Below are positions 12,796-56,097 of a DNA stretch of 64,000 nucleotides, in pieces. The translations under genes and the position numbers were made by a program. This DNA is from a virus. The notes below the pieces were generated by a model. That model worked only from the letters and a program-made list of their open reading frames with translations. It did not search any database and had not been told where the DNA came from. Position 1 is the first letter of the stretch; every line of letters starts with the position of its first letter. The stretch spans positions 1 through 64,000 of IMG/VR virus record IMGVR_UViG_3300048687_000070; one strand, written 5' to 3'.

Positions 12796-12808
12796 GCCAG
12801 CACGATAC

Positions 12809-12841: not shown

Positions 12842-12851
12842 GCCATGCAGA

Positions 12852-13031: not shown

Positions 13032-13095
13032 GCGTCCACGCTAGTCCGTGGCACTGACAGTGATCCATAGGGCAGCAGAACCGGCATATACCGAT

Positions 13096-13332: not shown

Positions 13333-13385
13333 GATCCCGACGCTAAGACCGCCATGCCGGACAGGCGAGACGAGATCGCTCAGTC

Positions 13386-13403
13386 CGCCTATCGCGCCTA
13401 TCG
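13386..13403. repeat. Tandem CGCCTATCG pair between divergent genes
   Basis: Two perfect abutting copies of the nonamer CGCCTATCG (13386-13394 and 13395-13403), between the GntR gene and the 13491 gene. They are candidate operator half-sites. Confidence 0.4.
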
Positions 13404-13490
13404 CACCGGAGTATCGTTCAAAACCCAAGAACCCCCGCATCCGAGGCAACGGACCGGGGGCAGGCCGACGGCAACCAGCGGAGCGTCGAC

Positions 13491-13823: not shown

Positions 13824-13978
13824 CCTGCGGTTCACCCCAGAGCGTGACCGGTCGTCACACACGGGTGTGAAAAGAGTGCAGCAACCCTTGCACTGTGCAC
13901 CCTTTCCGGCATATGACATTGAACGCGAAAGTAAGTAGCGAGGAGGCCGCGCCCAGACCCCGCCCGGCCTACCGCCCG

Positions 13979-14999: not shown

Positions 15000-16397
15000 T
15001 CACTCCTCGCCATCAACCGAAAGATCATTTTCGCTGGGGAGGATCTGGGGAGATCCAAGTTCAAGCGGATCATCAGGAGCCGCAGGCGACTCCACGGCCC
15101 CCGCCGACATGAAGCGACCAATCGCCTCACGCCCACGGCTGCCAGACTTCGGCATGAAGTGCACGTAAGTCCTCAGGGTAAACCCGGGATCCGAGTGCCC
15201 CAGCCAGTCGGCCAACTTCCCGATGTCCTCACCCTCCGAGAGCACCACACTCGCGAACGTGTGCCGCAACACGTGAAAGCCGTAATGCCGGGGCATGCTC
15301 CACGCCACCTTGTCCCACCCCCGCCGGCCGCCCTTCGGCTCCACGGGAGTCACCACCGGAGGGTCAATGAGGCCGGCCTTCACCAGAGCAGGCTTCCATG
15401 TGCGGTTGTTGAAGCTGTCCCTGTTGACCGCCCCACCCCGCTTGGTGTTCGAGTACCGCGATGTCACCAGCAACCTGACGGTCACCTTCGGCCGGTCCTC
15501 CCAGGCCAGGTTCGGACGGTCCGGATCCACCCACGGCAGCGTCACCTCCTGCGTCGGGAAAAGGTTCTGGTACTCCTTGACCGCCGCCGCCAGCTCCGGC
15601 GGGCACGGCGCCACACGCTCCTTGTTGCCCTTCGGGGGACCGAAGCCGAACTGCCCATTGGCCTTGATCACTTGCCGCACCACGTGGATGTCCTCGCCGT
15701 CGATGTCGTCCGGCGAGAAGCCGAACGCCTCCCCTTGCCGCAGGCCGGCGCCGAGCCCGAGCAGAAGCAGCACGGCGTACCGCTCCGGAAGGGCGTCGCG
15801 GACCGCGGCCACGGTCTCCTGAGGCCAGGCGATGGCCTTGGACTTCGGGATCCTGGGGGGCTTGAGGTCCGGATCGCGAAACGGGTTCGCGGGGATCCTC
15901 TTGGCCTTATGGGCGGCCTGCAGGATGGATGAGAAGTGGGCCCACGTGACAACCAGTGTGCCGACGTCGACACTCCGGTTCACCTTCGCCTGCCATGCGC
16001 GGATCTCGTCGAAGCCGATCCGGTTCAGGGGGAGGCTGCCAACGTGCGGCACGATGTGCCTGAACACCCGCGACCGAACGTTGAACTTGGAGCTTGGCGG
16101 GTAGCGGGTGGTGGGCCACCAGTAGTCATTGATGTAGTCGGCCAGGGCCATGGTGCCGTCGCGCGGGTCGTACCAGTCGCCGCGCCCACTGTCCGTCTGG
16201 GCGTTGGCCAGCCAGTCCTTCGCCGCCCCCAGCTGCTTGTCGGGGAACGACCGGGAACGCACACCGGGAATGCCGGTGACCTTGTACCGCATGCCCTGGC
16301 CGTGGCGTTTGGTGGGAACTCGGGTCGGCTTCTTCTTCGGGTCGTCCGGATCGGGCGGGCCCTGCTTGTACCACCGGTCCTCGATGTAGCCGGGCAT
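15000..16397 (-). CDS. int: Phage tyrosine integrase
   Basis: 465 residues, the full length of an actinophage tyrosine integrase. An N-terminal arm-binding segment (about 35-95) and a core-binding SAM-like domain (about 100-175) precede the catalytic domain with Arg220 (GAGLRQGE), His375 and Arg378 (FHVLRHTFAS), His401 (WLGHSDPG) and nucleophile Tyr411 (LRTYVHF). It would integrate the phage at attB and, with an excisionase, reverse the reaction. It is the second gene of a leftward unit with 16420-16863, transcribed toward the candidate attP. Confidence 0.93.
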   Translation of the reverse strand: MPGYIEDRWYKQGPPDPDDPKKKPTRVPTKRHGQGMRYKVTGIPGVRSRSFPDKQLGAAKDWLANAQTDSGRGDWYDPRDGTMALADYINDYWWPTTRYPPSSKFNVRSRVFRHIVPHVGSLPLNRIGFDEIRAWQAKVNRSVDVGTLVVTWAHFSSILQAAHKAKRIPANPFRDPDLKPPRIPKSKAIAWPQETVAAVRDALPERYAVLLLLGLGAGLRQGEAFGFSPDDIDGEDIHVVRQVIKANGQFGFGPPKGNKERVAPCPPELAAAVKEYQNLFPTQEVTLPWVDPDRPNLAWEDRPKVTVRLLVTSRYSNTKRGGAVNRDSFNNRTWKPALVKAGLIDPPVVTPVEPKGGRRGWDKVAWSMPRHYGFHVLRHTFASVVLSEGEDIGKLADWLGHSDPGFTLRTYVHFMPKSGSRGREAIGRFMSAGAVESPAAPDDPLELGSPQILPSENDLSVDGEE

Positions 16398-24255: not shown

Positions 24256-24546
24256 ATGCAGAACATGAGCCGCGAGGAACTCATCAGCCTCCTCGACAAC
24301 ATCAAGGACCGCGTTGCCTCCGGTGACAGCCTCGAAGGCAATCTCCAGTACCTGCTCGCCGATGTTGATGCCGAACATCCCTACGACGTAGCCGCCACCT
24401 TCCGAGTCGGCAACCGGACGGGGCAGGGCGGCTGCATCCTGATCGGCGCCGACTCCGGCCCTCTCGGCTGCAAGTGCGGCGACACGGTCGGCCCGTTCGA
24501 CGCGAAGACCGGCCGCTGCGAGACCTGCACCGAGGCCGCCGCATGA
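24256..24546 (+). CDS. Small zinc-ribbon protein
   Basis: 96 residues from ATG 24256 with GGAG upstream. A helical first third, then a C-terminal zinc ribbon CKCGDTVGPFDAKTGRCETC (about 72-91). Precedes and overlaps the exonuclease gene. Confidence 0.6.
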   Translation: MQNMSREELISLLDNIKDRVASGDSLEGNLQYLLADVDAEHPYDVAATFRVGNRTGQGGCILIGADSGPLGCKCGDTVGPFDAKTGRCETCTEAAA

Positions 24547-39432: not shown

Positions 39433-40026
39433 CTAGGCGCCGGCCACGCTAGTGCTCATGCCAACGATCAGCGCTTTGCCGGTGGAGCGACTCACTAAGC
39501 CTTGGGCGACTAGTAGCTGAAGTCCACGGCGGACGGTGAGTTGACTGACGCCGAACTCGAAGGCCAAGGACACGACTCCAGGAAGCTGCGCCCCCGTGTC
39601 GTAATCTCCGGACGTGATCTGTTGCGAGATCTGCTCGGCGACAAGCTCAGGCATTGAGATCTTCCGCCGCCTGCTCTCCTTGTCCACGGCGAGACCTCGC
39701 AGGAAGAGAGCTTCCTTCGCGGCCTTGGCGCGAGGAGATGCGGCCTGCTTAGGGGGCTGCCAGCCTTGATCCCGATCAGCGACAGTCGGGACGTGTGCCC
39801 GATTGTGGATTGCGCCCTCGGTGCGTATCGCGGCGAGTTCAGCGACTTCCGCCTCCCGTCGAGACTCGAACCACTGGACTCGCTCCCCGCGGACATCTGG
39901 CCACCAGGTCTTGGCGTGTTCCAGGGCGTGCTGCTTCCACCGGCGGTGCGGGTTGCTAGAGATCCCGACGTACAGGAGGCGGTCGTCCGCGTCGTAGAGG
40001 CGGTATAGAGCGGTCCGTTCCGTCAT
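39433..40026 (-). CDS. GIY-YIG nuclease/winged-helix fusion
   Basis: 197 residues. Residues 5-75 are a GIY-YIG-type domain (ALYRLYDADDRLLYVGISSNPHRRWKQHA...VQWFESRREAEVAELAAIR), with the catalytic Tyr pair, Arg and Glu positions present. Residues 120-190 are a GntR winged helix (VAEQISQQITSGDYDTGAQLPGVVSLAFEFGVSQLTVRRGLQLLVAQGLV). This couples a nuclease fold to sequence-specific DNA binding. It overlaps the upstream XRE gene by four bases, so the two are co-expressed. Confidence 0.75.
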   Translation of the reverse strand: MTERTALYRLYDADDRLLYVGISSNPHRRWKQHALEHAKTWWPDVRGERVQWFESRREAEVAELAAIRTEGAIHNRAHVPTVADRDQGWQPPKQAASPRAKAAKEALFLRGLAVDKESRRRKISMPELVAEQISQQITSGDYDTGAQLPGVVSLAFEFGVSQLTVRRGLQLLVAQGLVSRSTGKALIVGMSTSVAGA

Positions 40027-40772
40027 TCTGGCCTCCGGCTATACCGTGCCAGCGCGCCCTGGGTTGTGGACGCTTCCTGAAGTGAGAGCGCCCATGGTCC
40101 GGTGTTGGTGTCCATGTCCTTGCCGAAGCCCACCCACTTGCCGATCATGCGTGTGCCTGTCGGCTCGACGAGCATCTGGATCGCCCCGTGGTAGCGGGCG
40201 CCCCGGTAGTAGCCGTCGGTTGCGGTCTGCTCAACCCAGGTGCCGGTAATGACGCTGCCGTCGACCGTCAGGTCCATGGTCAGCGGGGAGTCCGGGTTCG
40301 TGGACGCGCCAGGGAGGGATCGGACCGTGAGGCGGTTCCCACGCTGGAGCACGAGCACGTAGTGCTGGGCGACGAAGGTCTCGTCGCGCCCACTGGAGTA
40401 GAACTCGTAGCGCGACAGCCAGACACCGTTGTAGCTGCTCCGGGGGGACGCCTGGGGTACCGGGCCCGGGGCCGGCGGGGCGACACCTTCCGGAGATGGC
40501 CGGACGTCGTGACCACCAGAGCCGTCTTCGGAGACGTGAGGGAAGTTGGCCGACGCGGAGAAGCCGAGCTCCTCGACCGCCATTCCGGTTACTGCTTCAA
40601 GGGCGCGAATGTAGGGCGGCTGAGGGCGCCGTGTCTGCCCTGACTCCCATCGTTGGACGAGCCGCTTGTTGGCTGCTGCTGCCCCGTTCTCCTTGAGCGC
40701 GGATGCGAAGCCCTCCTGACTCAGGAGCATGCCCATGCGGACAGCCCGGAGTGTGGCGTTTGGTGTCGTCAT
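40023..40772 (-). CDS. XRE regulator with C-terminal beta domain
   Basis: 249 residues. The HTH spans 8-72 (RMGMLLSQEGFASALKENGAAAANKRLVQRWESGQTRRPQPPYIRALEAVTG). A Pro-rich linker leads to a beta-barrel-like sensor (about 112-235: YNGVWLSRYEFYSSGRDETFVAQHYVLVLQRGNRLTVRSL...MIGKWVGFGKDMD). This design recurs in Streptomyces mobile elements. A -10-like TACCGT lies eight bases before the ATG, so translation is probably leaderless. Confidence 0.75.
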   Translation of the reverse strand: MTTPNATLRAVRMGMLLSQEGFASALKENGAAAANKRLVQRWESGQTRRPQPPYIRALEAVTGMAVEELGFSASANFPHVSEDGSGGHDVRPSPEGVAPPAPGPVPQASPRSSYNGVWLSRYEFYSSGRDETFVAQHYVLVLQRGNRLTVRSLPGASTNPDSPLTMDLTVDGSVITGTWVEQTATDGYYRGARYHGAIQMLVEPTGTRMIGKWVGFGKDMDTNTGPWALSLQEASTTQGALARYSRRPE

Positions 40773-40919
40773 GCAAGTAACGGTAGCCAGCGAAGCTAGG
40801 GAATGACACCGGTTTGACGCCCTAATGACGTCAAAGGGACGTCACGTTTGCCGTCGCGGGAAGCGGAGGTGCGGGGTCACTGTGTGGTCATGACTGATCA
40901 CGGCATGCCCCCGGCTCGG

Positions 40920-41138
40920 CTATTCCTCGGTCCCTGGCGTCTCGCTGGCGCCAGCGGCCAGCACGATCCGCCGCACCTGTTGGCGGGTGTACCCCGTCGC
41001 GTCGCAGATGTCCTTCTGGGTTACGCCGTCGCTGTCGGCGTCCCGAATGGCGACAGCAAGCGCCTGGCGCAGGACTTCAGTCCGCATCTCGGCGTCCCTG
41101 AACTGCTTCGCCACCTGCTCCAGTGATCGCTTGTCCAT
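40920..41138 (-). CDS. Small HTH protein
   Basis: 72 residues from ATG 41138: MDKRSLEQVAKQFRDAEMRTEVLRQALAVAIRDADSDGVTQKDICDATGYTRQQVRRIVLAAG. Helical N-terminus plus a Trp-repressor or sigma-like HTH. Frequent in Streptomyces integrative elements near Spd/Tra modules. The sequence just upstream (CATGCAAGT on the plus strand) is shared with the XRE gene start. Confidence 0.65.
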   Translation of the reverse strand: MDKRSLEQVAKQFRDAEMRTEVLRQALAVAIRDADSDGVTQKDICDATGYTRQQVRRIVLAAGASETPGTEE

Positions 41139-41346: not shown

Positions 41347-41790
41347 ATGAGCACAACCGTACAGCCCGCGCCCCTGGCGCTGGAGTCCACTTCCCGTCTC
41401 GTCCCGGCGATGGTTGGCCGGCCGGGCGCCACGCAGACCGTATGGATCACCTGCCCCGCATGGTGCTCCCAGGACCACCTCGCTGACCGTGAGGTCGCGA
41501 TCGAGGACATCGACCACTACTCGACCCCGTCGGGCTGGAGTGTCGGTTCGATCCTCGCCCCTGACGAGGCCGTGCACGACCTGTACGTGCGGGTCCACTC
41601 GGACCCGATGCACGAGCTGCCCGCTCTGCGTGAGGCGCATGTCCTCCTCGGCAACGGCTCGCCGTTCGACTCGTACCTGACGCCGGACATGGCGGAGGCG
41701 ACGGCCGACGAGCTGGTCGCCATGGCCTCCCAGATCCGCCAGGCCGCCACCATCGCCCGCGAGCAGCAGGTCGGGGAGGTGTCGTCATGA
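41347..41790 (+). CDS. DUF6907-like protein
   Basis: 147 residues from ATG 41347 with AGGGAGA upstream. VWITCPAWCSQDHLADREVAIEDIDHYS is the Cys/His motif of Streptomyces DUF6907 proteins, which are common at the start of Spd/Tra modules. ELVAMASQIRQAATIAREQ forms a C-terminal helix. Frames starting further upstream lie in the leader and are not supported. Confidence 0.65.
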   Translation: MSTTVQPAPLALESTSRLVPAMVGRPGATQTVWITCPAWCSQDHLADREVAIEDIDHYSTPSGWSVGSILAPDEAVHDLYVRVHSDPMHELPALREAHVLLGNGSPFDSYLTPDMAEATADELVAMASQIRQAATIAREQQVGEVSS

Positions 41791-42005
41791 CGACCACCCT
41801 GAGCCCCGCCGACGTTGCCGCCCACGAGCTGGCCTCCTATGTCCGTCCCCGCCGGATCCTGCAGCGTTTCCCGGCTGGTGGCCCGCGCGGCTCCTGGCCG
41901 GCGGAGGAGTACGCGAACCAGCGTCGCCTGGAGGGTCAGCCCGCCGAGGTCGTGATGGATCTTCGGTCTGACGCGTTCCTGGTGATCGTCCGGGAGGCGT
42001 CGTGA
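41787..42005 (+). CDS. Small hypothetical protein
   Basis: 72 residues in ATGA overlap: VAAHELASYVRPRRILQRFPAGGPRGSWPAEEYANQRR. Unknown function; part of the transfer operon. Confidence 0.5.
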   Translation: MTTTLSPADVAAHELASYVRPRRILQRFPAGGPRGSWPAEEYANQRRLEGQPAEVVMDLRSDAFLVIVREAS

Positions 42006-42265
42006 GTGGCTCTCGGTTGACGTCCGCGGTGCAGGCGGTGATTGCGGTCGGTCGGGCGATGCGGGCTGCGGATCCGTTGCCGGATGCGTCGCCGTGGCTG
42101 GTGTTTGAGCTGCGGGATCCGGCCGGCGAGCTGCTTTTTGACGGTCATCTGTCGTGGCTGGGTGCGGAGCGGGTGGTGGCGGTGTTGGAGGCGGCTGCGG
42201 CCGTGCAGCACCGTCGGCCGGCCGCTCCGACTCGCCCGCGGTTGCATCTGGTGCGTAACCCCTAG
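42002..42265 (+). CDS. Small hypothetical protein
   Basis: 87 residues from GTG in overlap. Helix-strand-strand-helix pattern with WLVFELRDPAGELLFDGHLSWLGAERVVAVLEAAAAVQ. No family known. Confidence 0.5.
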   Translation: MSGSRLTSAVQAVIAVGRAMRAADPLPDASPWLVFELRDPAGELLFDGHLSWLGAERVVAVLEAAAAVQHRRPAAPTRPRLHLVRNP

Positions 42266-42350
42266 ACCGCCGCGGTCGACGGTCGATCCCCCCATCCCGT
42301 CGGCCGCGGCGCCCACCCACACCCCAACTTCCCGAGAGGGCTTGATCGTG

Positions 42351-42590
42351 ATGTCTCCGTTCCTGTCCGACGCCGATCTGGGCGTCACCGACATCGGCCG
42401 CAAGAAGCGCGCCTCGACGACCGTCGGCGACGTGTCGGACGCCTACGCCGCCCAGCTGATCGACGAGTACCTGGCCGCGCGCGCCGCCCGCAGCTTCGAG
42501 CTCATGGCGTTGATCCGCGACCACGCCGCCGCGATCGACCCGCTCCTCGTCGACGAGCTCGACGGCATCGACTACCCGGCCGCCGCCTGA
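42351..42590 (+). CDS. Small acidic helical protein
   Basis: 79 residues; start at ATG 42351 (GTG 42348 possible). SDAYAAQLIDEYLAARAARSFELMALIRDHAAAIDPLLVDELDG. No motif. The 85 bases before it contain no gene. Confidence 0.5.
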   Translation: MSPFLSDADLGVTDIGRKKRASTTVGDVSDAYAAQLIDEYLAARAARSFELMALIRDHAAAIDPLLVDELDGIDYPAAA

Positions 42591-42733
42591 TGTGGGGCCA
42601 GCTGCTGGTCATCGTCATCGTCGGCGCCCTGTTCCTCGCGACGGGCTGGCTTCGGTGGCGCATCGAGCAGCCGGAGCGGGTCGAGTGTCGTGGCCACGGC
42701 TGCTGCCACACCTGCTGCAAGGGAGCTGCGTGA
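42590..42733 (+). CDS. 47-residue membrane microprotein
   Basis: Membrane helix at about 4-22 (QLLVIVIVGALFLATGWLRW) and a Cys-rich tail, CRGHGCCHTCC. It begins and ends at overlaps with both neighbours, which supports it. Small membrane proteins of this kind are typical of the Spd (spread) functions of Streptomyces plasmids. Confidence 0.6.
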   Translation: MWGQLLVIVIVGALFLATGWLRWRIEQPERVECRGHGCCHTCCKGAA

Positions 42734-43113
42734 TGGCCGCCGTTGACATCACGTCGTTCGGCTACCTGCACGACGGGCCGCCGGCCGCGCACCTGACGGT
42801 CGATCTGCGCCAGCACTTCCGCGACCCGCACGTTAGCCCGGAGCTGCGCCACATGACCGCCGACGACGAGCCGGTCCGTACCGCGGTCCTGAACACGCCC
42901 GGCCTCTCTGCGCTGGTGCAGGCCGTGACCGCGGCGGTCGAGGCGTTCGCGTCCGGCCCGTCCGCCGGTGCCGTCACGGTCGCCGCCGGGTGTGCGGGAG
43001 GCCGGCATCGCGCTCCCACATTTGCCCGCGCTCTTGCCGACCTGCTTTCTGCAGCCGGCCACCAAATCACCGTCCAACACCGCGACATGGACAAGCCCGT
43101 CGTCCAGCGGTGA
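42733..43113 (+). CDS. Stand-alone RapZ C-terminal-domain protein
   Basis: 126 residues: VDITSFGYLHDGPPAAHLTVDLRQHFRDPH, ELRHMTADDEPVRTAVLNTPG and VAAGCAGGRHRAPTFARALADLL...HRDM are the signature blocks of the RapZ C-terminal domain. In enterobacteria this domain binds GlcN6P and small RNA and works with an N-terminal ATPase, which is absent here. The CxGGRHR loop is intact (CAGGRHR), so ligand or RNA binding may be kept. It lies in the transfer operon, with a tRNA-like hairpin immediately after the stop. Confidence 0.8.
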   Translation: MAAVDITSFGYLHDGPPAAHLTVDLRQHFRDPHVSPELRHMTADDEPVRTAVLNTPGLSALVQAVTAAVEAFASGPSAGAVTVAAGCAGGRHRAPTFARALADLLSAAGHQITVQHRDMDKPVVQR

Positions 43114-43120
43114 ACCGGCA

Positions 43121-43162
43121 GCCCCGATGGTCGCAGGCCGGGTTCGACTCCCGGCCGGGGCA
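43121..43162 (+). ncRNA. tRNA-like minihelix (T arm plus acceptor)
   Basis: GCCCCGA (43121-43127), ten-base connector, T-stem CCGGG (43138-43142), loop TTCGACT, CCCGG (43150-43154), then CCGGGGC (43155-43161) and A. Six of seven acceptor pairs form. D and anticodon arms are absent, so it is not a normal tRNA. It could be a tRNA remnant, an old att core from a tRNA-integrating element, or a functional minihelix. Confidence 0.5.
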
Positions 43163-43201
43163 CGCACCACCAACTCGTTCACCGAATCAAAGGAGTACGT
43201 C

Positions 43202-43432
43202 ATGGGCCTGTGGCCGCGCAGCAACCGTTTCGAGGACGCCCGTCAGCAGCCGATCAGCGAGAGCAGCACGCGTGAGGCGGTGTCGAACCTGTCCGCGATG
43301 GCGAAGGCGTCGGAGGCCTCCGGGGACAGCCAGTCGGCGGCGACGGCGCGGGAGGCGTTGGACATGGAGCTGGACACCCTCCACGAGATCAGGAACCTGC
43401 AGGCGCACGGATTCAAGCAGCCGAAGCGCTAA
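43202..43432 (+). CDS. Small transfer-operon protein
   Basis: 76 residues from ATG 43202 with AAAGGAG upstream. Helical: EAVSNLSAMAKASEASGDSQSAATAREALDMELDTLHEIRNLQAHG. It shares the MGL start context and RBS layout with 43576. Unknown function. Confidence 0.5.
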   Translation: MGLWPRSNRFEDARQQPISESSTREAVSNLSAMAKASEASGDSQSAATAREALDMELDTLHEIRNLQAHGFKQPKR

Positions 43433-43442
43433 CCCCCTGGTC

Positions 43443-43486
43443 GCCGCGGGCGGGTGTTCACGGTTCCCCTCCGTCCCGCCCGCGGC
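43443..43486 (+). terminator. Long inverted repeat after 43432
   Basis: Twelve-base perfect arms GCCGCGGGCGGG and CCCGCCCGCGGC with a 20-base loop. Confidence 0.65.
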
Positions 43487-43575
43487 TCCCAGCCTCGGCC
43501 CGAGTTCCCGTCGTATGCCGCAAGGCAGACCGAGGCGCGCACCACCAACCGAACCCAACCCGAGAGGAGCCCTTC

Positions 43576-43725
43576 ATGGGCCTGCGCGACAAGATTTTTG
43601 GCACGCCGGAGCAGCAGGAGCACAACGCCCGCTTCAACAACCGGGACACCGACCCGGACAGCGAGGAGTACCTGGCCTCCCACGACCGGGTCATCGCCGC
43701 GGAGAAGACGGCGAAGAAGGCGTGA
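43576..43725 (+). CDS. 49-residue charged protein
   Basis: MGLRDKIFGTPEQQEHNARF then DTDPDSEEYLASHDRVIAAEKTAKK. GAGAGGAG upstream; stop overlaps the next ATG. Typical of small Spd-region genes. Confidence 0.55.
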   Translation: MGLRDKIFGTPEQQEHNARFNNRDTDPDSEEYLASHDRVIAAEKTAKKA

Positions 43726-43907
43726 TGGCCGCCTACCACTGCAAGCAGGACGAGACGCACGCCGAACTGCACGCCGGCGGGGCGAACCTGCCGTGCACCC
43801 AGTGCAAGGCCCACGCGAACAGCATGCCCATCGCGGGCGGCTGTCTGATCGTGACGCTCGTGTCCACCGCCATTGGCGCACTGCTGTACGGCCGGAAGAA
43901 GACCTGA
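43725..43907 (+). CDS. Small zinc/membrane protein
   Basis: 60 residues. YHCKQDETHAELHAGGANLPCTQCKAH is a metal-binding N-terminus; about 35-55 is a membrane helix (AGGCLIVTLVSTAIGALLYG). Likely a spread-type accessory of the transfer apparatus. Confidence 0.6.
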   Translation: MAAYHCKQDETHAELHAGGANLPCTQCKAHANSMPIAGGCLIVTLVSTAIGALLYGRKKT

Positions 43908-43939
43908 ATCCGAACCAACCGCCTGGAGAGGAGGCCGTC

Positions 43940-44143
43940 ATGCGGCCCCTGAAAGTCCTGCTCGTGACGGCCGTCCTCGCCCTGTTCGGCGCCTGCCCGT
44001 CGCTCGCCACCGCCCTCGGTGACGCGCTCGGCCTCGTGTTCGGCGGCGCCGCACAGATCGTCACCCAGCCCGCGCTGTTGCTCGCCGTGGCCCTCGGTGG
44101 CCTCGTTGCCGTCGTCGCCCGGCGTGGCCGGAGGGCCATCTGA
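43940..44143 (+). CDS. Small two-span membrane protein, Spd-like
   Basis: 67 residues with GAGAGGAGG upstream. Hydrophobic helices at about 5-28 and 43-61, basic C-terminus RRGRRAI. This resembles the small membrane Spd proteins encoded just before traB on Streptomyces plasmids, which help DNA spread through the mycelium. Confidence 0.6.
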   Translation: MRPLKVLLVTAVLALFGACPSLATALGDALGLVFGGAAQIVTQPALLLAVALGGLVAVVARRGRRAI

Positions 44144-44430
44144 TGCCGATCACCCTGCCCGCGTTCCTGACCCGCCATAAGGAGAGCCCGGTGTCCGAGA
44201 CCACCGCCCCTGCCGAGAACGGACCCAATGTCCTGATGCGGTTCCTCACCCTGGGAGGAGCTATCGCGATCGTCACCGGGTCCGGCAGCTACGGGGCCGA
44301 GGACTGCCACTGGAAGTGCCTCGGCTGCGACGACACGGACAACGGCATCCCCCGATGGGGCTGGAACGCGCGGGACGCAGCCAACGCCCACGCGGGGCAG
44401 TGCCGGGCGATGCCGAAGCCGGGGGCGTGA
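44143..44430 (+). CDS. Zinc-motif protein of the transfer operon
   Basis: 95 residues. CHWKCLGCDDTDNG and HAGQC supply four Cys and a His. Stop lies one base before the next GTG. Proteins with this CxxCL(G)C motif occur beside Spd/Tra genes; role unknown. Confidence 0.6.
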   Translation: MPITLPAFLTRHKESPVSETTAPAENGPNVLMRFLTLGGAIAIVTGSGSYGAEDCHWKCLGCDDTDNGIPRWGWNARDAANAHAGQCRAMPKPGA

Positions 44431-44431
44431 C

Positions 44432-45244
44432 GTGAACAGCCCACCTTCCCGCGCCCGGTGGGATCCGCTCGTCGCGGTATCCCTGATCGCCGGTGTCGGC
44501 TTCACTGCGATCGCCGAGTACCAGCTCGCCAGAAAGATCGGCTCCCCGGTACCCGTGGCGGTACTACTGCCCGTGGCATTGGACGTGTACGTGGTCGCCG
44601 CCATCCGCCGCTCTCGCGGCCGGGACATCGCACTCGCACTCCTCCTCATGGGCGTCGCGCAGGTGTCGGCGCACATGCTCGAAGCCGGCGTCGTCGAGAT
44701 TTCAGTACCGCTCGTCGCGGCCGTCTCCGTCCTGGTACCGCTCGTCATCTGGCGGGTGCACGCGCTGGCGGTACTGCCGAAGAAGCAGCCCGCCGGTACC
44801 GGTACCGCCCCGGCCGTGAGCGAGCCGGTTCCGGACGCCACCGTCGAGCGAGTACCGGCATCCGCGCCCGCCCCGGTACCGCCTGCGGTACCGGTACCGC
44901 CCGCGAGCCGCCCGGAACTCGAGGCCGTACCGGAAGCAGTACCGGCCCCGGTACCGGTACGGCCGCGCCGCCCGAACAGCCAGAAGACGCCGCGCAGTAC
45001 CGCCCCGAAGTCCCGGCAGAAGAAGACCGGTACCGGCTCGTTCGACGACCACGTCCGCACCGCCATCGGCTGGCTCGGCGACGAACCGGACCTGTCCGGT
45101 ACCGCCATCGGCGAGCGGCTCGGTACCGGCGACTCCTACGGCCGCCGCGTGCGCCGCGAAGCCCTCGCGAAGGCCGGTACCGAACCGGCTCCTGGCCCCG
45201 AGCACCGGGACCACAACACCGACCAAATCCTCACCGGAAGCTGA
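44432..45244 (+). CDS. SpdB/DUF2637-like membrane protein
   Basis: 270 residues from GTG. Four hydrophobic helices in the first 115 residues (LVAVSLIAGVGFTAIAEYQLARKIG, VAVLLPVALDVYVVAAI, IALALLLMGVAQVSAHML, VPLVAAVSVLVPLVIW) match the DUF2637/SpdB2 type. A Pro/Val/Ala-rich linker (about 118-205) and a C-terminal HTH-like region follow (SFDDHVRTAIGWLGDEPDLSGTAIGERLGTGDSYGRRVRREAL). SpdB proteins cooperate with TraB in intramycelial spread. The gene has a remarkable density of GGTACC sites. Confidence 0.75.
   Translation: MNSPPSRARWDPLVAVSLIAGVGFTAIAEYQLARKIGSPVPVAVLLPVALDVYVVAAIRRSRGRDIALALLLMGVAQVSAHMLEAGVVEISVPLVAAVSVLVPLVIWRVHALAVLPKKQPAGTGTAPAVSEPVPDATVERVPASAPAPVPPAVPVPPASRPELEAVPEAVPAPVPVRPRRPNSQKTPRSTAPKSRQKKTGTGSFDDHVRTAIGWLGDEPDLSGTAIGERLGTGDSYGRRVRREALAKAGTEPAPGPEHRDHNTDQILTGS
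44548..45181 (+). repeat. Cluster of GGTACC palindromes inside the SpdB-like gene
   Basis: Twelve exact GGTACC hexamers begin at 44548, 44734, 44794, 44800, 44875, 44886, 44892, 44949, 45029, 45098, 45122 and 45176; five more GTACC with another first base lie between them. They encode Val-Pro in one frame and Gly-Thr in another, so the repeat is at DNA level. Candidate recognition sites for the adjacent TraB-like translocase. Confidence 0.65.
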
Positions 45245-45247
45245 CCC

Positions 45248-47389
45248 ATGAGCGCCCACCACACCGCGCCGGCCGACCCGAAGCCCGCCCTGAAACTCGT
45301 TCCCTCGACCGACACGGCCGTGCAGGTGTCGACTCGCCCGGAGCGGCGCCGCCTGCGCGCGGACCGACTGCGGCGCATCGTCGTCGCCACCCGCAACAAC
45401 CCGGGGTACCGGCTCGCCGTCCGGCACGGCGCCTACACCCTCGGCGGGACCCGCATCCTGACCCGTCGCGCCTGGGACGCACGGACCGCGGCCCGGTACG
45501 AGCGGATGATGCGCATCGCCGAAGCGTCCGGGAACGAGGAGGCCACACGGGTGTGGGAGCAGCGGGCCCACGCCTACCGGTTCGCCCGGCGCCGCGGACG
45601 CATGGAACTCCTGCAACTGATCCTCAACGCGCCCAAGGCGGTAGCCATGGGCGCGGGCGCAACCGCTGGCGTTCTCCTGCTGCTCGGGATGATGCTGGCC
45701 GCTGCCAGGGAAGACATCAGTGACGTCCTCGTCCCGCTCAACGCCGTGATTCAGCTGGTCAGCTGGGTTGCGTTCATCGCGGGCGTCGTCTGGCGGCCGT
45801 TGCTGGTGTCGCTGCCGTTCCTCGCTCTGGCCGGGGCGTGGGCGGTCGGACGCCACCAGAAGTCCGCACCGGTATGGGCACTGCCCGTCGACCCCGGCGA
45901 GCAGGGCATCGTCCCGGACGAGAACGCCATCATGCGGGCGCTGGGCAAGCTGAGCATCGCGGAGCTCAATGCGGCCATCAAGGAGGGCTGGCAGCCGCGT
46001 TGGGTGCAGGGCACCGTCCGCTCCGGCAACGGCTATCACGCCCAGCTGCAGCTTCCTCTTGGCGCCCCCGTCGAGATGATCATCAAGAAGAAGAATGTTC
46101 TCGCGCACAACCTGCTCCGCAAGCCCGTCGAAGTGTGGCCCACCGAGCCGCCCCGCATGCCTGGCGTCCTCGACCTGTGGGTCGCCGACCAGGGCTCCCT
46201 GTCCGGGAAGATCCCGAGTTGGCCGCTGCTGCACGAGGGCACGACCGACTACTTCGAGGGCGTTCCCCTCGGCGTGTCCCAGCGCGGTGATCCGATCATC
46301 GGGAAACTGATGGCCGCGAACTACATGGTCGGCGGGATCATGGGATCCGGTAAATCGTCGCTGGTCATCTCGCTGCTTCTGGGCGCCGCCCTCGATCCGA
46401 TCGTCGACATCGAGGCCTACGTCATGGCCTACAACGTCGACTACGACCCGCTCAAGCCCCGCATGAGCGTCCTGGTCAAGGGCGACGACGACGAGCAGCT
46501 GAAGACCGCCCTCGACCGGCTGCGCAGCCTGACCAACGAGGTCACCGAACGCGGCAAGCTGCTGGAGGAGCTCGGCGGCGAGACCACCAAGCTGACGCGG
46601 GAGCTTTCGCTGAGGGACCAGCGGATGCGGCCCAAGGTCATCGTTTTCGACGAGTGCCACGAGCTGTTCATGCACAAGGGCTACGGCAAAGAGGCCGCTG
46701 AACTGGCCATTCGCGTCATGAAGAAGGCCCGCAAGGTCGGTATCACCCTCATCTGGGTCACCGTGTCGCCGACCGCCGACAGCATCCCGCGCGACGTCAC
46801 CCGCAACACGAGTCACCGTGTCGCGTTCGCCGTCGGCGACCACGTCGCCAACGACGGACTGCTCGGCTCCGGCCGCCACAAGGCCGGCATCACCGCCACC
46901 ACACTCATCCCCGGCGAGGACGTCGGCACCGCCGTCACCGTCGGCTTCACCAGCAAGCCGTTCGAGGTGGTGCGCGCCCACTACGTGGCCCGCGACCCGG
47001 AAAAGAACATCGACCAGGTCACGCCCGTCGTCGAGCGCTCCTTGACGGCGTACAAGCGCGGCGACGTGTGGGAGGTGCCCGCACCCGAGAGGGTCGACCA
47101 CCTCGTCGACATCGCGAAAGTCCTCGGCCACGAACCCAAGCTGCTCACCCAGGACGTCCTGCACGAACTCCACAACCTGAACCCGGACGTCTACGGCGAG
47201 TGGACGTTCCGGGACCTGCGCAGCGTCCTCGACACGGCCGGCCACGGCGAGTACAAGACCGGCGGGCGCCAGCACGTCAGCCTCGACCGCATCCTCGACG
47301 CCATCGCCGCCCGCGACGAATACGCCTCCGAGGACGCCGTAGAGATCGGCTACAGCGAGGGAGGCGATGAGGGAGGAAGCGATACGTGA
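45248..47389 (+). CDS. TraB/FtsK-like DNA translocase
   Basis: 713 residues. Membrane helices at about 131-153 and 165-200 anchor a cytosolic FtsK/SpoIIIE-type motor with Walker A GIMGSGKS (363-370) and Walker B KVIVFDECH (463-471), followed by the arginine-finger region and a C-terminal winged-helix-like part (about 630-700). This is the architecture of Streptomyces TraB/TraSA proteins, which move double-stranded DNA between cells through a hexameric pore, recognising short clt repeats. Its location after an SpdB-like gene supports a conjugative rather than a cell-division role. Confidence 0.85.
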   Translation: MSAHHTAPADPKPALKLVPSTDTAVQVSTRPERRRLRADRLRRIVVATRNNPGYRLAVRHGAYTLGGTRILTRRAWDARTAARYERMMRIAEASGNEEATRVWEQRAHAYRFARRRGRMELLQLILNAPKAVAMGAGATAGVLLLLGMMLAAAREDISDVLVPLNAVIQLVSWVAFIAGVVWRPLLVSLPFLALAGAWAVGRHQKSAPVWALPVDPGEQGIVPDENAIMRALGKLSIAELNAAIKEGWQPRWVQGTVRSGNGYHAQLQLPLGAPVEMIIKKKNVLAHNLLRKPVEVWPTEPPRMPGVLDLWVADQGSLSGKIPSWPLLHEGTTDYFEGVPLGVSQRGDPIIGKLMAANYMVGGIMGSGKSSLVISLLLGAALDPIVDIEAYVMAYNVDYDPLKPRMSVLVKGDDDEQLKTALDRLRSLTNEVTERGKLLEELGGETTKLTRELSLRDQRMRPKVIVFDECHELFMHKGYGKEAAELAIRVMKKARKVGITLIWVTVSPTADSIPRDVTRNTSHRVAFAVGDHVANDGLLGSGRHKAGITATTLIPGEDVGTAVTVGFTSKPFEVVRAHYVARDPEKNIDQVTPVVERSLTAYKRGDVWEVPAPERVDHLVDIAKVLGHEPKLLTQDVLHELHNLNPDVYGEWTFRDLRSVLDTAGHGEYKTGGRQHVSLDRILDAIAARDEYASEDAVEIGYSEGGDEGGSDT

Positions 47390-47454
47390 GGGAGAAATCC
47401 CTCCGCGCCTCCCCACCTGCCTCCCCACGCCTGACCTGCACAAAGGCCCGGTTG

Positions 47455-47532
47455 GGGAGGCAAGGGAGGCAAGGGAGGCAGCCCTCCCAAGACCCCGGAA
47501 AACGCGCTGCGGCCTCCCCTCGGCTGCCTCCC
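47455..47532. repeat. GGGAGGCAA tandem repeats and inverted repeat after traB
   Basis: Three tandem nonamers at 47455-47463, 47464-47472 and 47473-47481 (the last ending in G). GGGAGGCAGCC (47473-47483) is the perfect complement of GGCTGCCTCCC (47522-47532). Further GGGAGG copies lie in the end of the traB-like gene. The rest of the 173-base gap holds no gene. Possible clt-type locus or terminator. Confidence 0.5.
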
Positions 47533-47562
47533 TCCCCACCCCGACACCGAAGGAGAACCGGC

Positions 47563-48192
47563 ATGAGCGGCACGGTGAAAGTGCAGCAGATGACGGTCGA
47601 CGGGGCACCGTACACGTGCCCCGAGTGCGACTCGCACACGTTCACACTCGACGGCCACCCGGTCTTCGACGCGCTCCCCGCGATAGCCAACTGCGACTTC
47701 TCGCACCACTGGGACGACTCGTTGATCACCGGTGACACGCTCGTGATGATCCGCGGTTCGCGTACCGGCCGCCCCCGCGCCCACGACGAGGACACGTTCG
47801 ACGTCACCCACAACGGCATCCGGTTCGAAGGCACCCTCGTACCCGAACTCGTCTACGACGACCTCCGTCAGGCCGGCCGCATCTACTGGAAGCGGATCAT
47901 CAAGCCCACCGTGCGGAAGAAGAAGCGGGCCGCGCTGCGCACCCTCGCCCGCCCCGGAAAGCAGGCTGCACGCAAGGCCCGCGACGCCGCATCGGCAACC
48001 AAGGCCGCCACCATCGCCGCCGCCTGGACCGCCCAGACCGGCGGCTACCAAGACGACGCCGACTACCAGAGCGAGTCCGTCATCCCCTGCGGAGCGGGCT
48101 GCACCGACGGCTACTTCCCCCTCGACACCCATATCCACGGCGCCGCCCAAGTCCGGTGCTCCGTATGCCACGGAACCGGCGAAACCCTGTAA
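47563..48192 (+). CDS. Zinc-ribbon protein of the transfer module
   Basis: 209 residues from ATG 47563 with AAGGAG upstream. An N-terminal CPECDSHTFTLDGH, a middle strand-rich region, a basic helical stretch (TVRKKKRAALRTLARPGKQAARKARDAA) and a C-terminal CGAGCTDGYFPLDTHIHGAAQVRCSVCHGTG ribbon. It may bind DNA or RNA. Starts upstream of 47563 run through the repeat region. Confidence 0.6.
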   Translation: MSGTVKVQQMTVDGAPYTCPECDSHTFTLDGHPVFDALPAIANCDFSHHWDDSLITGDTLVMIRGSRTGRPRAHDEDTFDVTHNGIRFEGTLVPELVYDDLRQAGRIYWKRIIKPTVRKKKRAALRTLARPGKQAARKARDAASATKAATIAAAWTAQTGGYQDDADYQSESVIPCGAGCTDGYFPLDTHIHGAAQVRCSVCHGTGETL

Positions 48193-48206
48193 GGAGATCC
48201 AACCCC

Positions 48207-48695
48207 ATGACCATGCCGCTGCCCGAGCCGCGCCCGACCATCCAGGCCGGGCAGCGGCAGCTCTCCCCGGAGACCCGGAAGATTCTCGACGAGATCGAGA
48301 CCGTGTACAGCAAGTCCGTACCGACATCGGTGCGCGTTGAGGAAGTGCCGCACCCGGCCCCGCCAGCCGTCCAGCAGCCCGGCCGGCCCCCCATGAGCCC
48401 GCGGGCGACCGGGGTGTCCGTGATGCTCGTCGCCGGCGGCTTCTTCTCCCTGTGCCTCGGCGCGGCGACCTCGATGGTCCTGTACTTCTCGCAGGCCGCC
48501 AACGAGACCGTCGTCATCACCCTGTGCGCGGCGCCCCCCGCCGTGTTCCTGTCGCTCGGCGCCCTCGTCAAGAAGATCCGCAAGGCGATGCCCGACGAGC
48601 ACCACCACCACTACGAGGCGCCAGTGTTCCAGGACCAGCGCACCACCCACACCGAGACCCGCGGCGTGTGGGCGCGCACCAACAACACGCAGTAG
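48207..48695 (+). CDS. Two-span membrane protein, Spd-like
   Basis: 162 residues with AAGGAG upstream. Pro-rich cytoplasmic N-terminus, membrane helices at about 68-92 and 100-124, then a charged His-rich tail (MPDEHHHHYEAPVFQDQ). It closes the transfer operon. Confidence 0.6.
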   Translation: MTMPLPEPRPTIQAGQRQLSPETRKILDEIETVYSKSVPTSVRVEEVPHPAPPAVQQPGRPPMSPRATGVSVMLVAGGFFSLCLGAATSMVLYFSQAANETVVITLCAAPPAVFLSLGALVKKIRKAMPDEHHHHYEAPVFQDQRTTHTETRGVWARTNNTQ

Positions 48696-48748: not shown

Positions 48749-48779
48749 AAGAGGGCTACCTGATGCAGGTGGCCCTCTT
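48749..48779 (+). terminator. Terminator of the transfer operon
   Basis: AAGAGGGCTACCTG pairs with CAGGTGGCCCTCTT around ATG, followed by TGCG. Confidence 0.75.
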
Positions 48780-48798
48780 TGCGTTCCCGGAGGTGACC

Positions 48799-49035
48799 AT
48801 GACCGCCTCCACCCGCGGCCTGCTCACGGAGGGCGAGGCCGCCTACTACGCGGGCCGGCCCGGCGCCACGATCCGCCGGTGGGCCCACGAAGGCCGCATC
48901 CACCGGCACGGCTCGGGCCGCGGCAACGTCCGCTACAGCGTGTTCGAGCTCCCCAAAGCCGAACGCGACGAATGGACCCGCGCGCTGCTCGCGCCCGGCG
49001 CAACCCCACCTCTCCCCGCGGTCCGCGCCGCATAG
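48799..49035 (+). CDS. MerR/excisionase-like HTH protein
   Basis: 78 residues from ATG 48799 with GGAGG upstream. LLTEGEAAYYAGRPGATIRRWAHEGRIHRHGSGRGNVRYSVFELP is a winged-helix HTH_17 domain. It may regulate the following fibre genes or serve as a second recombination directionality factor. Confidence 0.7.
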   Translation: MTASTRGLLTEGEAAYYAGRPGATIRRWAHEGRIHRHGSGRGNVRYSVFELPKAERDEWTRALLAPGATPPLPAVRAA

Positions 49036-53717: not shown

Positions 53718-54182
53718 ATGCCTCGTACCGCCAAGCCGGCGACCCTGAAGTTGATCGAGGGCCGGGCGGTCGGCCGGGACTCCGGGGGCCGCAAGGTCGA
53801 GAAGGGGCCGGCCTTCAAGCGGGTCCCGCCGGAGGCCCCGGAGTGGCTGTCCGAGGAGGCGGCCGCGGAGTGGGAGCGGGTGATGCCGGAGCTGTCCCGC
53901 CTGGATCTGGTGAAGGAGTCGGACCGGGCGGCCCTGGCGTCCTACTGCGAGGCGTGGGCGACGTTCCGCGAGGCGACGGAGACGGTTCAACGCGACGGTC
54001 TGACGATCGAGGCGCGGCAGGGAACGCTCGCGCACCCTGCGGTGGCGATCGCCCGCGCGGCGGGCCGCGAAGTGCGGTCGTGGGCGGCGCACTTCGGGCT
54101 GACTCCGTCGACGGAGCAGGCTCTGGCGCGAAGCGGGGGCGACGATGGCGACGAAGCGAACCCGTTCGCCGGCTCCGGCTGA
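53718..54182 (+). CDS. terS: Terminase small subunit (P27 type)
   Basis: 154 residues from ATG 53718 with GGGGAGA upstream. LKLIEGRAVGRDSGGRKVEKGPAFKRVPPEAPEWLSEEAAAEWERVMPEL and the helical DNA-binding remainder are the P27 family pattern. It recognises the packaging site and loads the large subunit. It overlaps terL by 38 bases. Confidence 0.85.
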   Translation: MPRTAKPATLKLIEGRAVGRDSGGRKVEKGPAFKRVPPEAPEWLSEEAAAEWERVMPELSRLDLVKESDRAALASYCEAWATFREATETVQRDGLTIEARQGTLAHPAVAIARAAGREVRSWAAHFGLTPSTEQALARSGGDDGDEANPFAGSG

Positions 54183-55866
54183 GCTGGGGATCAGTGCCGA
54201 GGTCGCCTGGTACATGAAGGAGCGGGGTATCCCGCTGCCGGACTGCCCGCCGAAGGTGCAGACCCCGAATCCGGGCGAGGCGCCGGGTGCGGTGTTCGAT
54301 CCGGCGAAGGTGGACCGGGTACTGACGTCGTTCCATCTGCTGCGGCACACGCAGGGCAAGTGGGCGGGCAAGCCGCTGGATCCGGATCCGTGGCAGGTGG
54401 CCTATGTGCTTGCGCCCGTCTTCGGGTGGGTGCGCTGGGACGACGAGGCCGAGGGCTACGTGCGGATCGTCCGCAAACTGTACGTGGACGTGCCACGGCG
54501 TAACGGTAAGACGACGCTGTCGGGAGGCATCGCCGTCTACCTGATGGCGGCGGACTCCGAGCCGGGCGCCCAGGTGTACGCCGCGGCGACCAGCGAGAAG
54601 CAGGCCCGGTACACGTTCGACCCGATCAAGACGATCGCGGAGCGGGCGCCGGCGTTGAAGGGCAACGTCAAGGCGTACACGAAGAAGATCACGCACCCGG
54701 CGTCGGGCTCATACTTCACGGTGGTCTCGTCGGTGGCGGAGGCCCTGCATGGGGCGAATGTCCACGGTGGCATCATCGACGAGCTGCACGTCCACAAGAG
54801 CCCGGATCTCGTCGAGACGATCGAGACGGGCACCGGCTCCAGGCGTCAGCCTCTCGTGGTGATCATCACGACGGCGGATGAGGGCAAGCAGGAGTCGATC
54901 TACGACCGGAAGCGGCAGTACATCGAGCAGCTGGCCCGCGGCTCCCTGCACGACCTGGACACCTACGGCGTGGTGTGGGGCGCGGACGAGGACGACAATC
55001 CTCACGACGAGGCGACCTGGCGCAAGGCGAACCCCGGCTACGGCGTATCCCCTTCGGCCGCGTACCTGCGCGGCGCGTCCGCCGAGGCCCAGCAGTCGCC
55101 CGCGGACCTGGCGAAGTTTCTGCGCCTGCACTTGGGTATCCGCACCAAGCAGTCGACGCGCTTCCTGATGATGGACTCCTGGGACAACAACGCGGGCCTC
55201 GTCGACGAGGAGGCGCTGCGCGGCCGGGACACCTGGGGCGGCCTCGACCTCGCGTCGACGTCCGACCTGTGCGCGCTGTGCTGGCTGTTCCCGGACGACG
55301 AGACGGGAACGCTGGATGCGCTGTGGCGGTTCTGGACACCGGAGGACAACCTCAAGGCGCTGGACAAGCGCACCGCGGGCGCGGCGACGAAGTGGGTGCG
55401 GCAGGGCTACCTGACGACAACGCCCGGCAACGTCGCCGACTACGACTTCATCGTCGAGCAGATCAAGCGCGACCGGGACGCGTTCACGGTGAAGAGCATC
55501 GGCTACGACCCCTGGAACGCCTCGCAGTTGACGAACACACTGGTCGCGGAGCGGGCGCCGATGGTGAAGGTCCGGCAGGGCTTCGCCACCATGAGCCCGG
55601 TCTTGAAGGAGATTCAACGGCTGGTGCTGCAGGGCACCCCGCGGGCTCCGGCGTTGCGGCACGGCGGCCATCCGGTGGTGCGCTGGTGCGTCGACAACCT
55701 TGCCGTGACCATGGACCCGGCGGGCAATGTGAAGCCCGACAAGGCCAACTCGGGTGACAAGATCGATGGCGTGTCTGCGCTGGCCACCGCCATGGCAGAG
55801 ATCGTGGCCCGGCCCCCGAAGCGGCGTTCCGCATACGAGGACGCCGACGAAATGATGATCGTGTGA
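54145..55866 (+). CDS. terL: Terminase large subunit
   Basis: 573 residues. ATPase domain with Walker A VPRRNGKTT (116-124) and Walker B GIIDEL (209-214, Asp212/Glu213); nuclease domain starting with WGGLDLAST (Asp368) and a late acidic motif DGVSALATAMAE. HK97/phiC31-like TerL that packages DNA into proheads and cuts at cos. Confidence 0.93.
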   Translation: MATKRTRSPAPAELGISAEVAWYMKERGIPLPDCPPKVQTPNPGEAPGAVFDPAKVDRVLTSFHLLRHTQGKWAGKPLDPDPWQVAYVLAPVFGWVRWDDEAEGYVRIVRKLYVDVPRRNGKTTLSGGIAVYLMAADSEPGAQVYAAATSEKQARYTFDPIKTIAERAPALKGNVKAYTKKITHPASGSYFTVVSSVAEALHGANVHGGIIDELHVHKSPDLVETIETGTGSRRQPLVVIITTADEGKQESIYDRKRQYIEQLARGSLHDLDTYGVVWGADEDDNPHDEATWRKANPGYGVSPSAAYLRGASAEAQQSPADLAKFLRLHLGIRTKQSTRFLMMDSWDNNAGLVDEEALRGRDTWGGLDLASTSDLCALCWLFPDDETGTLDALWRFWTPEDNLKALDKRTAGAATKWVRQGYLTTTPGNVADYDFIVEQIKRDRDAFTVKSIGYDPWNASQLTNTLVAERAPMVKVRQGFATMSPVLKEIQRLVLQGTPRAPALRHGGHPVVRWCVDNLAVTMDPAGNVKPDKANSGDKIDGVSALATAMAEIVARPPKRRSAYEDADEMMIV

Positions 55867-55878
55867 CGGGGGTGGGCT

Positions 55879-56097
55879 GTGTTCGCGTGGCGTCGTACCG
55901 CAGTGCGTAAGCGGGTTGTGGTGAACCTGGCGGACAAGGCTTTCTCCGGGGTGCTGTGGGCGCAGCGCGGCCCGCTCCTGGTCCTGCGCGACGTGGAACT
56001 GCTGGAGGCCGGCCGGGAGGCTGCGCGGGTGGATGGCGAGGTCGTCGTGGAGCGGTCCCGCATCGAGTTCACCCAGGTGCTGGCGGGCGGTGGCTGA
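55879..56097 (+). CDS. Small head-module protein
   Basis: 72 residues from GTG. Beta-rich: VVVNLADKAFSGVLWAQRGPLLVLRDVELLEAGREA. A conserved small gene between terL and portal in Streptomyces phages; role unknown. Its stop overlaps the portal ATG. Confidence 0.55.
   Translation: MFAWRRTAVRKRVVVNLADKAFSGVLWAQRGPLLVLRDVELLEAGREAARVDGEVVVERSRIEFTQVLAGGG

Follow-up and report, generated by a model that had tools for sequence, protein, structure and literature searches.

A probable TraB-type conjugation cassette as an exchangeable module of an integrative Streptomyces-type phage

Can a phage carry the conjugation machinery of Streptomyces plasmids and actinomycete integrative elements (AICEs), and what might it use that machinery for? 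The question arises from a locus in the first 64,000 nucleotides of IMG/VR record IMGVR_UViG_3300048687_000070 (hereafter the window), where an initial annotation placed a TraB/FtsK-like translocase among Spd-like genes within a single phage genome. Our analysis makes it probable that an integrative Streptomyces-type phage here carries, as an exchangeable module, a TraB-type cassette for conjugative transfer (Table 1): three repressor-like genes that diverge from the operon, Spd-like membrane genes, TraB, and a candidate for clt, the cis-acting transfer site, with TraB-specific octamers.

Table 1. Features of the transfer module and its phage context (window coordinates)
Feature	Coordinates	Strand	Basis
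Tyrosine integrase of middle prophage unit	15000..16397	-	Phage_integrase 8e-11
GIY-YIG domain fused to GntR-type HTH, Kor-like position	39433..40026	-	Pfam GntR 6.3e-14, GIY-YIG 1e-7
HTH-like regulator, travels with TraB-bearing modules	40023..40772	-	no Pfam match
Small KorA-like HTH repressor candidate	40920..41138	-	Pfam HTH_23 8.5e-5, KORA 5e-4
DUF6907 protein, first gene of transfer operon	41347..41790	+	Pfam DUF6907 4.2e-17
Three small soluble ORFs	41787..42590 (41787-42005, 42002-42265, 42351-42590)	+	gene calls
47-aa one-span membrane ORF, Cys-rich end	42590..42733	+	sequence; no family
RapZ C-terminal-domain protein	42733..43113	+	Pfam RapZ_C 8.9e-26
Two small soluble ORFs	43202..43725 (43202-43432, 43576-43725)	+	gene calls
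60-aa microprotein, Cys-rich, one span	43725-43907	+	gene calls, hydropathy
67-aa microprotein, two spans	43940-44143	+	gene calls, hydropathy
95-aa microprotein, Cys/His-rich	44143-44430	+	gene calls, hydropathy
SpdB-like protein	44432..45244	+	270 aa, four membrane spans, C-terminal HTH-like tail
TraB-type DNA translocase	45248..47389	+	membrane helices, FtsK motor, C-terminal winged helix; profiles, model, tree
Candidate clt	47350..47540 (about)	+	8 RGGGAGGC/GCCTCCCY octamers around TGACCTGC (47432)
209-aa protein, Cys-pair (zinc-ribbon-like) motifs	47563..48192	+	weak zinc-finger matches only
Two-span membrane protein, phage-associated partner gene	48207..48695	+	phrog_19266 3.5e-38
HTH_17/excisionase-like or MerR-like small DNA-binding protein, right edge	48763..49035	+	phrog_2474 7.4e-9, HTH_17 3.4e-4
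Small and large terminase	53718-55866	+	TerL about 60% by tblastn against Arthrobacter and Gordonia phages
Portal	56097-58031	+	Phage_portal 6e-81
Protease	58034-58921	+	virion gene map
Capsid	58931-60241	+	Phage_capsid 2.6e-42

The translocase at the center of the locus bears out its first description. Its ORF is intact (713 aa) and encodes a Walker A motif, GIMGSGKS (residues 363-370), and a Walker B motif, VIVFDE (residues ~464-469), both unchanged or almost so across 23 relatives. Profile searches match the protein to phrog_1358, annotated 'FtsK/SpoIIIE-like' (1.2e-20), and to Pfam FtsK_SpoIIIE at 3.6e-5, a value slightly below the cut-off in the protein scan and above it in the genome scan. 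Alongside the FtsK motor fold, the AlphaFold2 model contains a C-terminal winged helix, while hydrophobic N-terminal helices are visible both by hydropathy and in the model, where confidence is moderate. The protein is thus a TraB-type FtsK translocase, for which we infer a transfer activity. In phylogenetic analysis it clusters with the TraBs of AICEs and plasmids, and is placed neither with host FtsK, which falls outside the TraB group, nor with a phage packaging motor; pIJ101 Tra and ZL12 gp71 sit on long branches and their placement is unsure.

The genes around traB follow the layout of Streptomyces plasmid and AICE transfer regions, as first proposed: TraB, Spd-like, regulator, and cis-site parts are kept in AICEs and in other phages. 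The SpdB/DUF2637-like label given to the gene before traB stands on position, architecture, and a group profile match, but not on a direct Pfam match of its own, of which there is none. The protein is orthologous to membrane genes that precede traB in the same position in loci L012, L015, L018, and L019, its membrane part being 54-56% identical to the latter three, and hhalign matches the profile of these orthologues to a DUF2637-containing group (94%, E 1e-7). We consider the label good by position and architecture, and moderate by sequence. The small membrane or Cys-rich ORFs expected before traB are likewise present, as is the two-span membrane protein after it, which is 35-48% identical to proteins of sister phages L160, L168, and L169. 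The SpdB-like protein and the microproteins are without strong sequence links to proven Spd proteins. Several smaller genes recur beside other traB genes or in related elements. For instance, the 95-aa microprotein has a 43% relative directly upstream of traB in phage L008 and a 38% relative in AICE L024; DUF6907 genes lie upstream of traB in L008 and its relatives (cluster c6); the RapZ-C protein is 73-76% identical in AICEs L025, L027, and L030 and in phage L014; and the ORFs starting at 41787 and 42351 have relatives in sister phages that are 43-61% identical.

The unit extends further left than first described, to three repressor-like genes that diverge from the transfer operon (39433-41138). 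The GIY-YIG/GntR protein has a 45% identical relative at the same place in sister phage L168, and the adjacent regulator is 67-76% identical in sister phages; TraB is present in five of the six viral records found with the latter. The KorA-like candidate is 71-72% identical in sister phages L168 and L171, and 71-75% identical to opposite-strand ORFs that border the tra operon on its left in L019 and L034. At the right edge, the small DNA-binding protein has relatives at the same place in sister phages. A search for insertion-boundary repeats around the module returned only short, chance-level matches.

The initial annotation overlooked a repeat-rich cis element directly 3' of traB, newly recognized here, and the predicted clt code that it suggests is the main interest of the locus. 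Eight of the 24 RGGGAGGC/GCCTCCCY sites in 88 kb sit in this element (at 47358, 47407, 47419, 47454, 47463, 47472, 47512, and 47526), compared with a maximum of two per 200 bp in shuffled sequence. Alignment indicates that the element is conserved and common to phages and AICEs, with divergent TraBs having different octamers in the same position. Repeat type tracks the winged helix (AUC 0.98) and not the motor (0.23), as expected of a TraB recognition sequence, although the association could in part reflect physical linkage, since the winged-helix codons adjoin the repeats. The repeats are what a cis-acting transfer site would be expected to look like, and we predict that they are clt.

That the module truly resides in a phage is clear, although the picture of one module in one phage genome needs amendment on two counts. 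First, the 88-kb record comprises parts of three related prophages in tandem, of which the middle unit is complete and holds the transfer module. By gene map and family assignment, this one unit has intact genes for terminase, portal, capsid, tail, and lysis, as in a temperate tailed phage, and its integrase is 36-38% identical to AICE integrases; the host element is an integrative Streptomyces-type phage. An exact att core sought between 14-15 and 80.5-81.3 kb gave only short, chance-level matches. Second, the module is no oddity of a single phage. The same arrangement occurs in at least 10 other phage loci, which excludes an assembly accident, and many independent records have it ahead of their head genes; in INPHARED, neither tblastn with TraB nor megablast with 24 kb of the window found a match. 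Candidate loci were set aside where their context spoke against a phage: L043, with a capsid gene on the same contig, is an AICE close to a prophage; L034, proposed from a tape-measure-like 1.4-kaa protein, is AICE-like, with an integrase by a tRNA-Ser gene and no head genes; and L016, proposed on the same basis, has RepSA set against it. The tape-measure-like 1.4-kaa protein is also found in L015 and L019.

Phage-borne TraBs do not form a single lineage (AU p=7e-52). Sister phages hold quite different TraBs, in different TraB/repeat pairs, in the same slot with the same regulators, and many lack TraB altogether; TraB is therefore dispensable for the phage life cycle. The phages' versions of the transfer cassette are interchangeable among related prophages, and the cassette is a swappable module.

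We favor a conjugation cassette because the motor, an FtsK-family protein whose Walker residues are invariant and whose C terminus is a winged helix, groups with AICE TraBs and apart from host FtsK; because the conserved 3' repeats track that winged helix across phages and AICEs; because sister phages exchange TraB/repeat pairs within a constant slot, and independent records repeat the arrangement upstream of head genes; and because conjugative plasmid-phages, pZL12 and pFP4, provide precedents. Its most likely function would be to carry the circular phage genome, once excised, from hypha to hypha or through septa. The parts, their conservation, the phylogeny, and the repeat/winged-helix correspondence are observed, and the regulation, binding, pumping, and transfer described next are inferred. 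In the prophage state, the regulators would hold the transfer operon off. Once the phage genome has excised and circularized, membrane-anchored TraB hexamers may bind the RGGGAGGC repeats via the winged helix and, assisted by SpdB-like proteins, pump the double-stranded circle via hyphal tips or septa into the adjacent compartment, where the integrase would insert it.

The same machine and cis site would also be used if TraB served only intramycelial spread or segregation, moving genomes across septa such that every compartment carries the prophage or replicates the phage, rather than inter-strain mating. Plasmid Spd genes do serve intramycelial spread, and spreading has been argued to be a stability function (PMC4170104). 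Even so, we consider so restricted a role unlikely: AICEs with the same TraB type and repeat have the same parts, accepted there as a conjugation system, and both activities are steps of one process in Streptomyces. Less likely still is that the module is a decaying, functionless AICE remnant whose repeats are a terminator or operator. Modules of different origin in one slot, the many sister phages without TraB, and inverted repeat pairs able to form hairpins would suit such a remnant, but every cassette ORF and motor motif is intact, the arrangement is found again in several phage lineages, no AICE replication or integration genes remain beside the module, and a terminator would not need to vary by TraB type in step with the winged helix. 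A role in DNA packaging or chromosome handling, as a phage motor or captured host FtsK, is highly improbable and rejected on phylogeny and context, since, despite a position upstream of head genes and a weak terminase-family PHROG match (6e-7), the protein has N-terminal membrane helices, close relatives in AICEs that lack packaging genes, and no place with host FtsK, and the phage has its own large terminase.

Viewed as a conjugation cassette, the locus can be set beside several known systems. The TraB/TRS system of pSVH1 and its relatives shares a membrane-anchored FtsK-type motor, a winged helix, and 8-bp repeats, which in the window are the predicted target. The repeats differ: RGGGAGGC in the window, against the pSVH1 octamer GACCCGGA; sister phage L161 has ACCCGGAC-type repeats, and sister phages L168 and L170 have GTTTCG and CCCGGAC repeats, respectively. 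The principle of a membrane-anchored motor with a winged helix and an 8-bp repeat target has been set out for TraB/TRS (PMC4170104). AICEs, the pSAM2-like integrative elements of actinomycetes, have in common with the window element the TraB family, the SpdB-like, DUF6907, RapZ-C, and KorA-like genes, the order of these genes, and the repeats 3' of traB. The window element differs in having genes for head, tail, terminase, and lysis, and none of its genes belongs to the Prim-Pol (c4) or VapE-like (c27) clusters that AICEs have beside traB. The element would work like an AICE yet is classed otherwise, with integrase, TraB, and a full virion gene set.

Dual-mode Streptomyces plasmid-phages, pZL12 and pFP4, have already been described (PMC3583192, PMC4170104), and the window element is therefore a new integrative variant beside them. 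As cited in a later paper (PMC3583192), pZL12 conjugates and requires a major tra gene and adjacent genes for this; the window similarly has a tra gene and adjacent transfer genes beside virion genes. ZL12 also resembles the window in its FtsK-like gp071, a neighbor, gp070, related to the 48207-48695 protein (37% identical), an upstream membrane gene (gp073), and a GntR regulator, with head genes on the other side. However, its FtsK gene sits at the end of a very long branch and has no octamer element right 3' of it, whereas the window TraB falls in the AICE family together with the regulators and the cis element. Further, pZL12/ZL12, pFP4, and pSLE1 persist as plasmids, while the window phage has an integrase and lies in a tandem prophage array. 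PHROG 1358 (FtsK/SpoIIIE-like) and 19266 (unknown) are the families of TraB and the 48207-48695 protein, but their annotation, moron or unknown function, includes neither a conjugation role nor a cis site.

A broader proposal, which we offer tentatively and consider rather doubtful, is that Streptomyces prophages and AICEs draw on a common stock of transfer cassettes that use a DNA address code, in which winged helix and 3' octamers are matched pairs exchanged en bloc. Where an AICE and a prophage share an octamer, such as RGGGAGGC, each could then mobilize the other, and prophages might routinely travel from hypha to hypha as naked double-stranded circles. According to a 2022 study, a clt motif had not been described even for pSAM2; the study also raised the question of whether elements can hijack each other's TraB (PMC9513070); the predicted clt sites offer testable specificities for AICEs. 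If the cassette works, integrative phages of filamentous actinomycetes could spread not only as particles but also by contact, a second route that needs no receptor, and one element would have both conjugation and phage infection as alternative modes.

The initial annotation placed a Spd/TraB conjugation module within this phage genome, and its central ATPase is borne out: family matches identify the 713-residue TraB as an FtsK/SpoIIIE-type ATPase, the Walker motifs lie where they had been assigned, and residues G363, G366, S367, G368, K369, D468 and E469 are invariant across a 23-sequence alignment. FtsK motors were the sole matches among PDB sequences (profile search, 2e-7). In an AlphaFold2 model (mean pLDDT 71.7), long helices at the N-terminus are followed by a RecA-type core, and the C-terminus shows a winged-helix pattern; Foldseek matched this model to FtsK motors (1.7e-13), followed by the conjugation coupling protein TcpA. 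Grouping with host FtsK, sought as a refutation, was not seen: host FtsK lies outside in a 59-sequence tree, in which the window TraB belongs to a clade of phage and actinomycete integrative element (AICE) sequences. The proposed SpdB/DUF2637-like gene upstream stands in part. Although this four-span protein has no Pfam match of its own, it aligns with equivalently placed genes of loci L012, L015, L018 and L019, and their joint profile matches a DUF2637 group (94%, E 1e-7). The transfer unit extends leftward to take in three divergent regulator genes. The KorA-like HTH among them shares 71-75% identity with ORFs on the minus strand that mark the left margin of the tra operons in L019 and L034. 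The RapZ C-terminal domain protein is among the most conserved genes of the pool shared by phages and AICEs (73-76% identity between versions).

Features of the prophage array, its transfer region and compared loci
Feature	Position	Strand	Remark
Integrase	15000-16397	minus	left end of middle unit
Integrase	record 81215-82468		single loose family with 15000-16397
Second tyrosine recombinase, one per unit	7306-8325; record 77066-78103		past lysis region, separate from left-end integrase
Candidate Ku-type DNA end-binding protein	9559-10479		left unit; read by eye
Candidate DNA polymerase sliding clamp	23090-24133		early operon; read by eye
GIY-YIG+GntR regulator	left of transfer operon	divergent	
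HTH-like regulator	left of transfer operon	divergent	no Pfam match
KorA-like HTH regulator	left of transfer operon	divergent	relatives in L019, L034
RapZ C-terminal domain protein	42733-43113		free-standing
Four-span protein	44432-45244	plus	
TraB	45248-47389	plus	
Tape-measure-like protein	L016:12135-16199	minus	
Tape-measure-like protein	L034:16277-20734	minus	
Tape-measure-like protein	L015:17474-21730	plus	
CCCGGAC repeat	3' of traB		L157, L161, L170, L171
GTTTCG repeat	3' of traB		L168, L053
CTAGC-type repeat	3' of traB		L054, L055, L056, L059, L061
CACGCC repeat	3' of traB		L169

The source IMG/VR record is 88184 bp long, and the window covers its first 64 kb. Gene calls and self-comparison show that the record is a tandem array of related prophages: one is complete (about 14.5-81 kb), preceded by the last part of another and followed by the beginning of a third. 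Blocks within 1-13937 share about 75-88% identity with record 71394-80278, and 24460-25421 is 94% identical to record 87235-88184; no clear att repeat was found in the array. The middle unit runs from integrase through the early operon (18-36 kb) and transfer region to tail, terminase, portal, capsid and tape-measure genes, with large terminase, portal and capsid being clear family members, and reaches a presumed lysis region near 75 kb.

Phage carriage of TraB extends beyond this record. IMG/VR and GTDB contigs yielded 38 relatives. In L005, L006, L008, L009, L012 (one element with L017), L014, L018, L032 and also the more distantly related L044, phage genes of terminase, portal, protease and capsid type follow traB within a few kb; L007 has TerL, with capsid farther along. 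Most of L020-L031, L035 and L036 instead show the AICE layout of Prim-Pol, VapE-like, Xis and integrase genes. AICE-rich clades also contain phage-borne TraBs, the AU test rejects a single phage grouping (p 7e-52), and the tree requires six or more phage/AICE changes. L016, L034 and L015 are AICE-like, without head genes, have TraBs close to those of phages and encode tape-measure-like proteins (1350-1485 aa); two of the three partially match an NlpC/P60 peptidoglycan hydrolase.

Of 48 viral records gathered mostly through capsid similarity, nine have a TraB-like match (26-35% identity), in the same slot in those examined; absence elsewhere is weak evidence because some records are fragments. 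TraB is present in five of six records found with the regulator at 40023-40772. In the sister phage L168 (62 kb), regulators, RapZ-C, two-span protein, HTH protein and tail genes are ordered as in the window, around a TraB just 35-37% identical. In TraB-less sisters (L158, L159, L162-L167) other membrane genes occupy the slot, possibly another spreading or exclusion module. There (about 4-12 kb, capsid downstream), a ZL12 gp073-related membrane protein of roughly 500 aa precedes four to six small membrane proteins, with no obvious ATPase. Sampling of 60 Streptomyces genomes revealed traB-like genes in 31, of which only one (G115) had traB <10 kb from a PF04860 portal; phage carriage is therefore uncommon but recurrent.

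Published TraB biology suggests how such a module most likely operates. The phage genome would excise, circularise and present its repeats to TraB hexamers anchored in the membrane. These would pump double-stranded DNA into an adjacent hypha or compartment; Spd-like proteins would aid spread, and the integrase would re-insert the transferred genome. The main rival, intramycelial spreading instead of mating, would employ an identical machine.

TraB recognises 8-bp TRS repeats within clt, the cis-acting transfer site (PMC4170104), and a candidate clt directly follows traB here. Eight RGGGAGGC/GCCTCCCY sites fall in about 190 bp from the last traB codons onward, of 24 in the entire 88-kb record; first-order Markov resampled sequence gave at most two per 200 bp. 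A 23-locus alignment defines the conserved 3' pattern as AGGGAGTTCTCCCT, two GCCTCCC, TGACCTGC, two AGGGAGGC and GCCTCCCTCCCT. Phages and AICEs both have it, L044 (35% TraB identity) and Pseudonocardia L037 among them. Of 55 traB 3' regions, 32 contain TGAYCWGC, versus 4% of background windows. Other TraB subfamilies carry a different repeat in the same place. L044 and L048 share the window's repeat type with motors 25-26% and winged helices 42-44% identical to its own, whereas L168, with a different repeat, has 37% and 19%, respectively. Over pairs with <45% motor identity, winged-helix identity separated same- from different-repeat pairs with AUC 0.98 and motor identity with 0.23, for non-independent pairs and repeat classes set post hoc upon inspection. 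By sequence comparison, repeat type tracks the winged helix and not the motor. Block recombination alone would also couple the two, because winged-helix codons adjoin the repeats.

Two conjugating plasmid-phages that also form particles are on record: pZL12 (PMC3583192), whose conjugation depends on a tra gene and adjacent genes, and pFP4 (PMC4170104). ZL12 has a layout comparable to the window's. The pZL12-like PhiNon1 of Nonomuraea integrates as well, with no tra function stated in the passages considered (PMC5431353). In open-access literature, incompletely covered, we found no account either of TraB cassettes carried by integrative Streptomyces prophages or of the 3' repeat element. We regard the transfer module as a variation on a known kind of element, and the predicted TraB/octamer code as its most valuable novelty.
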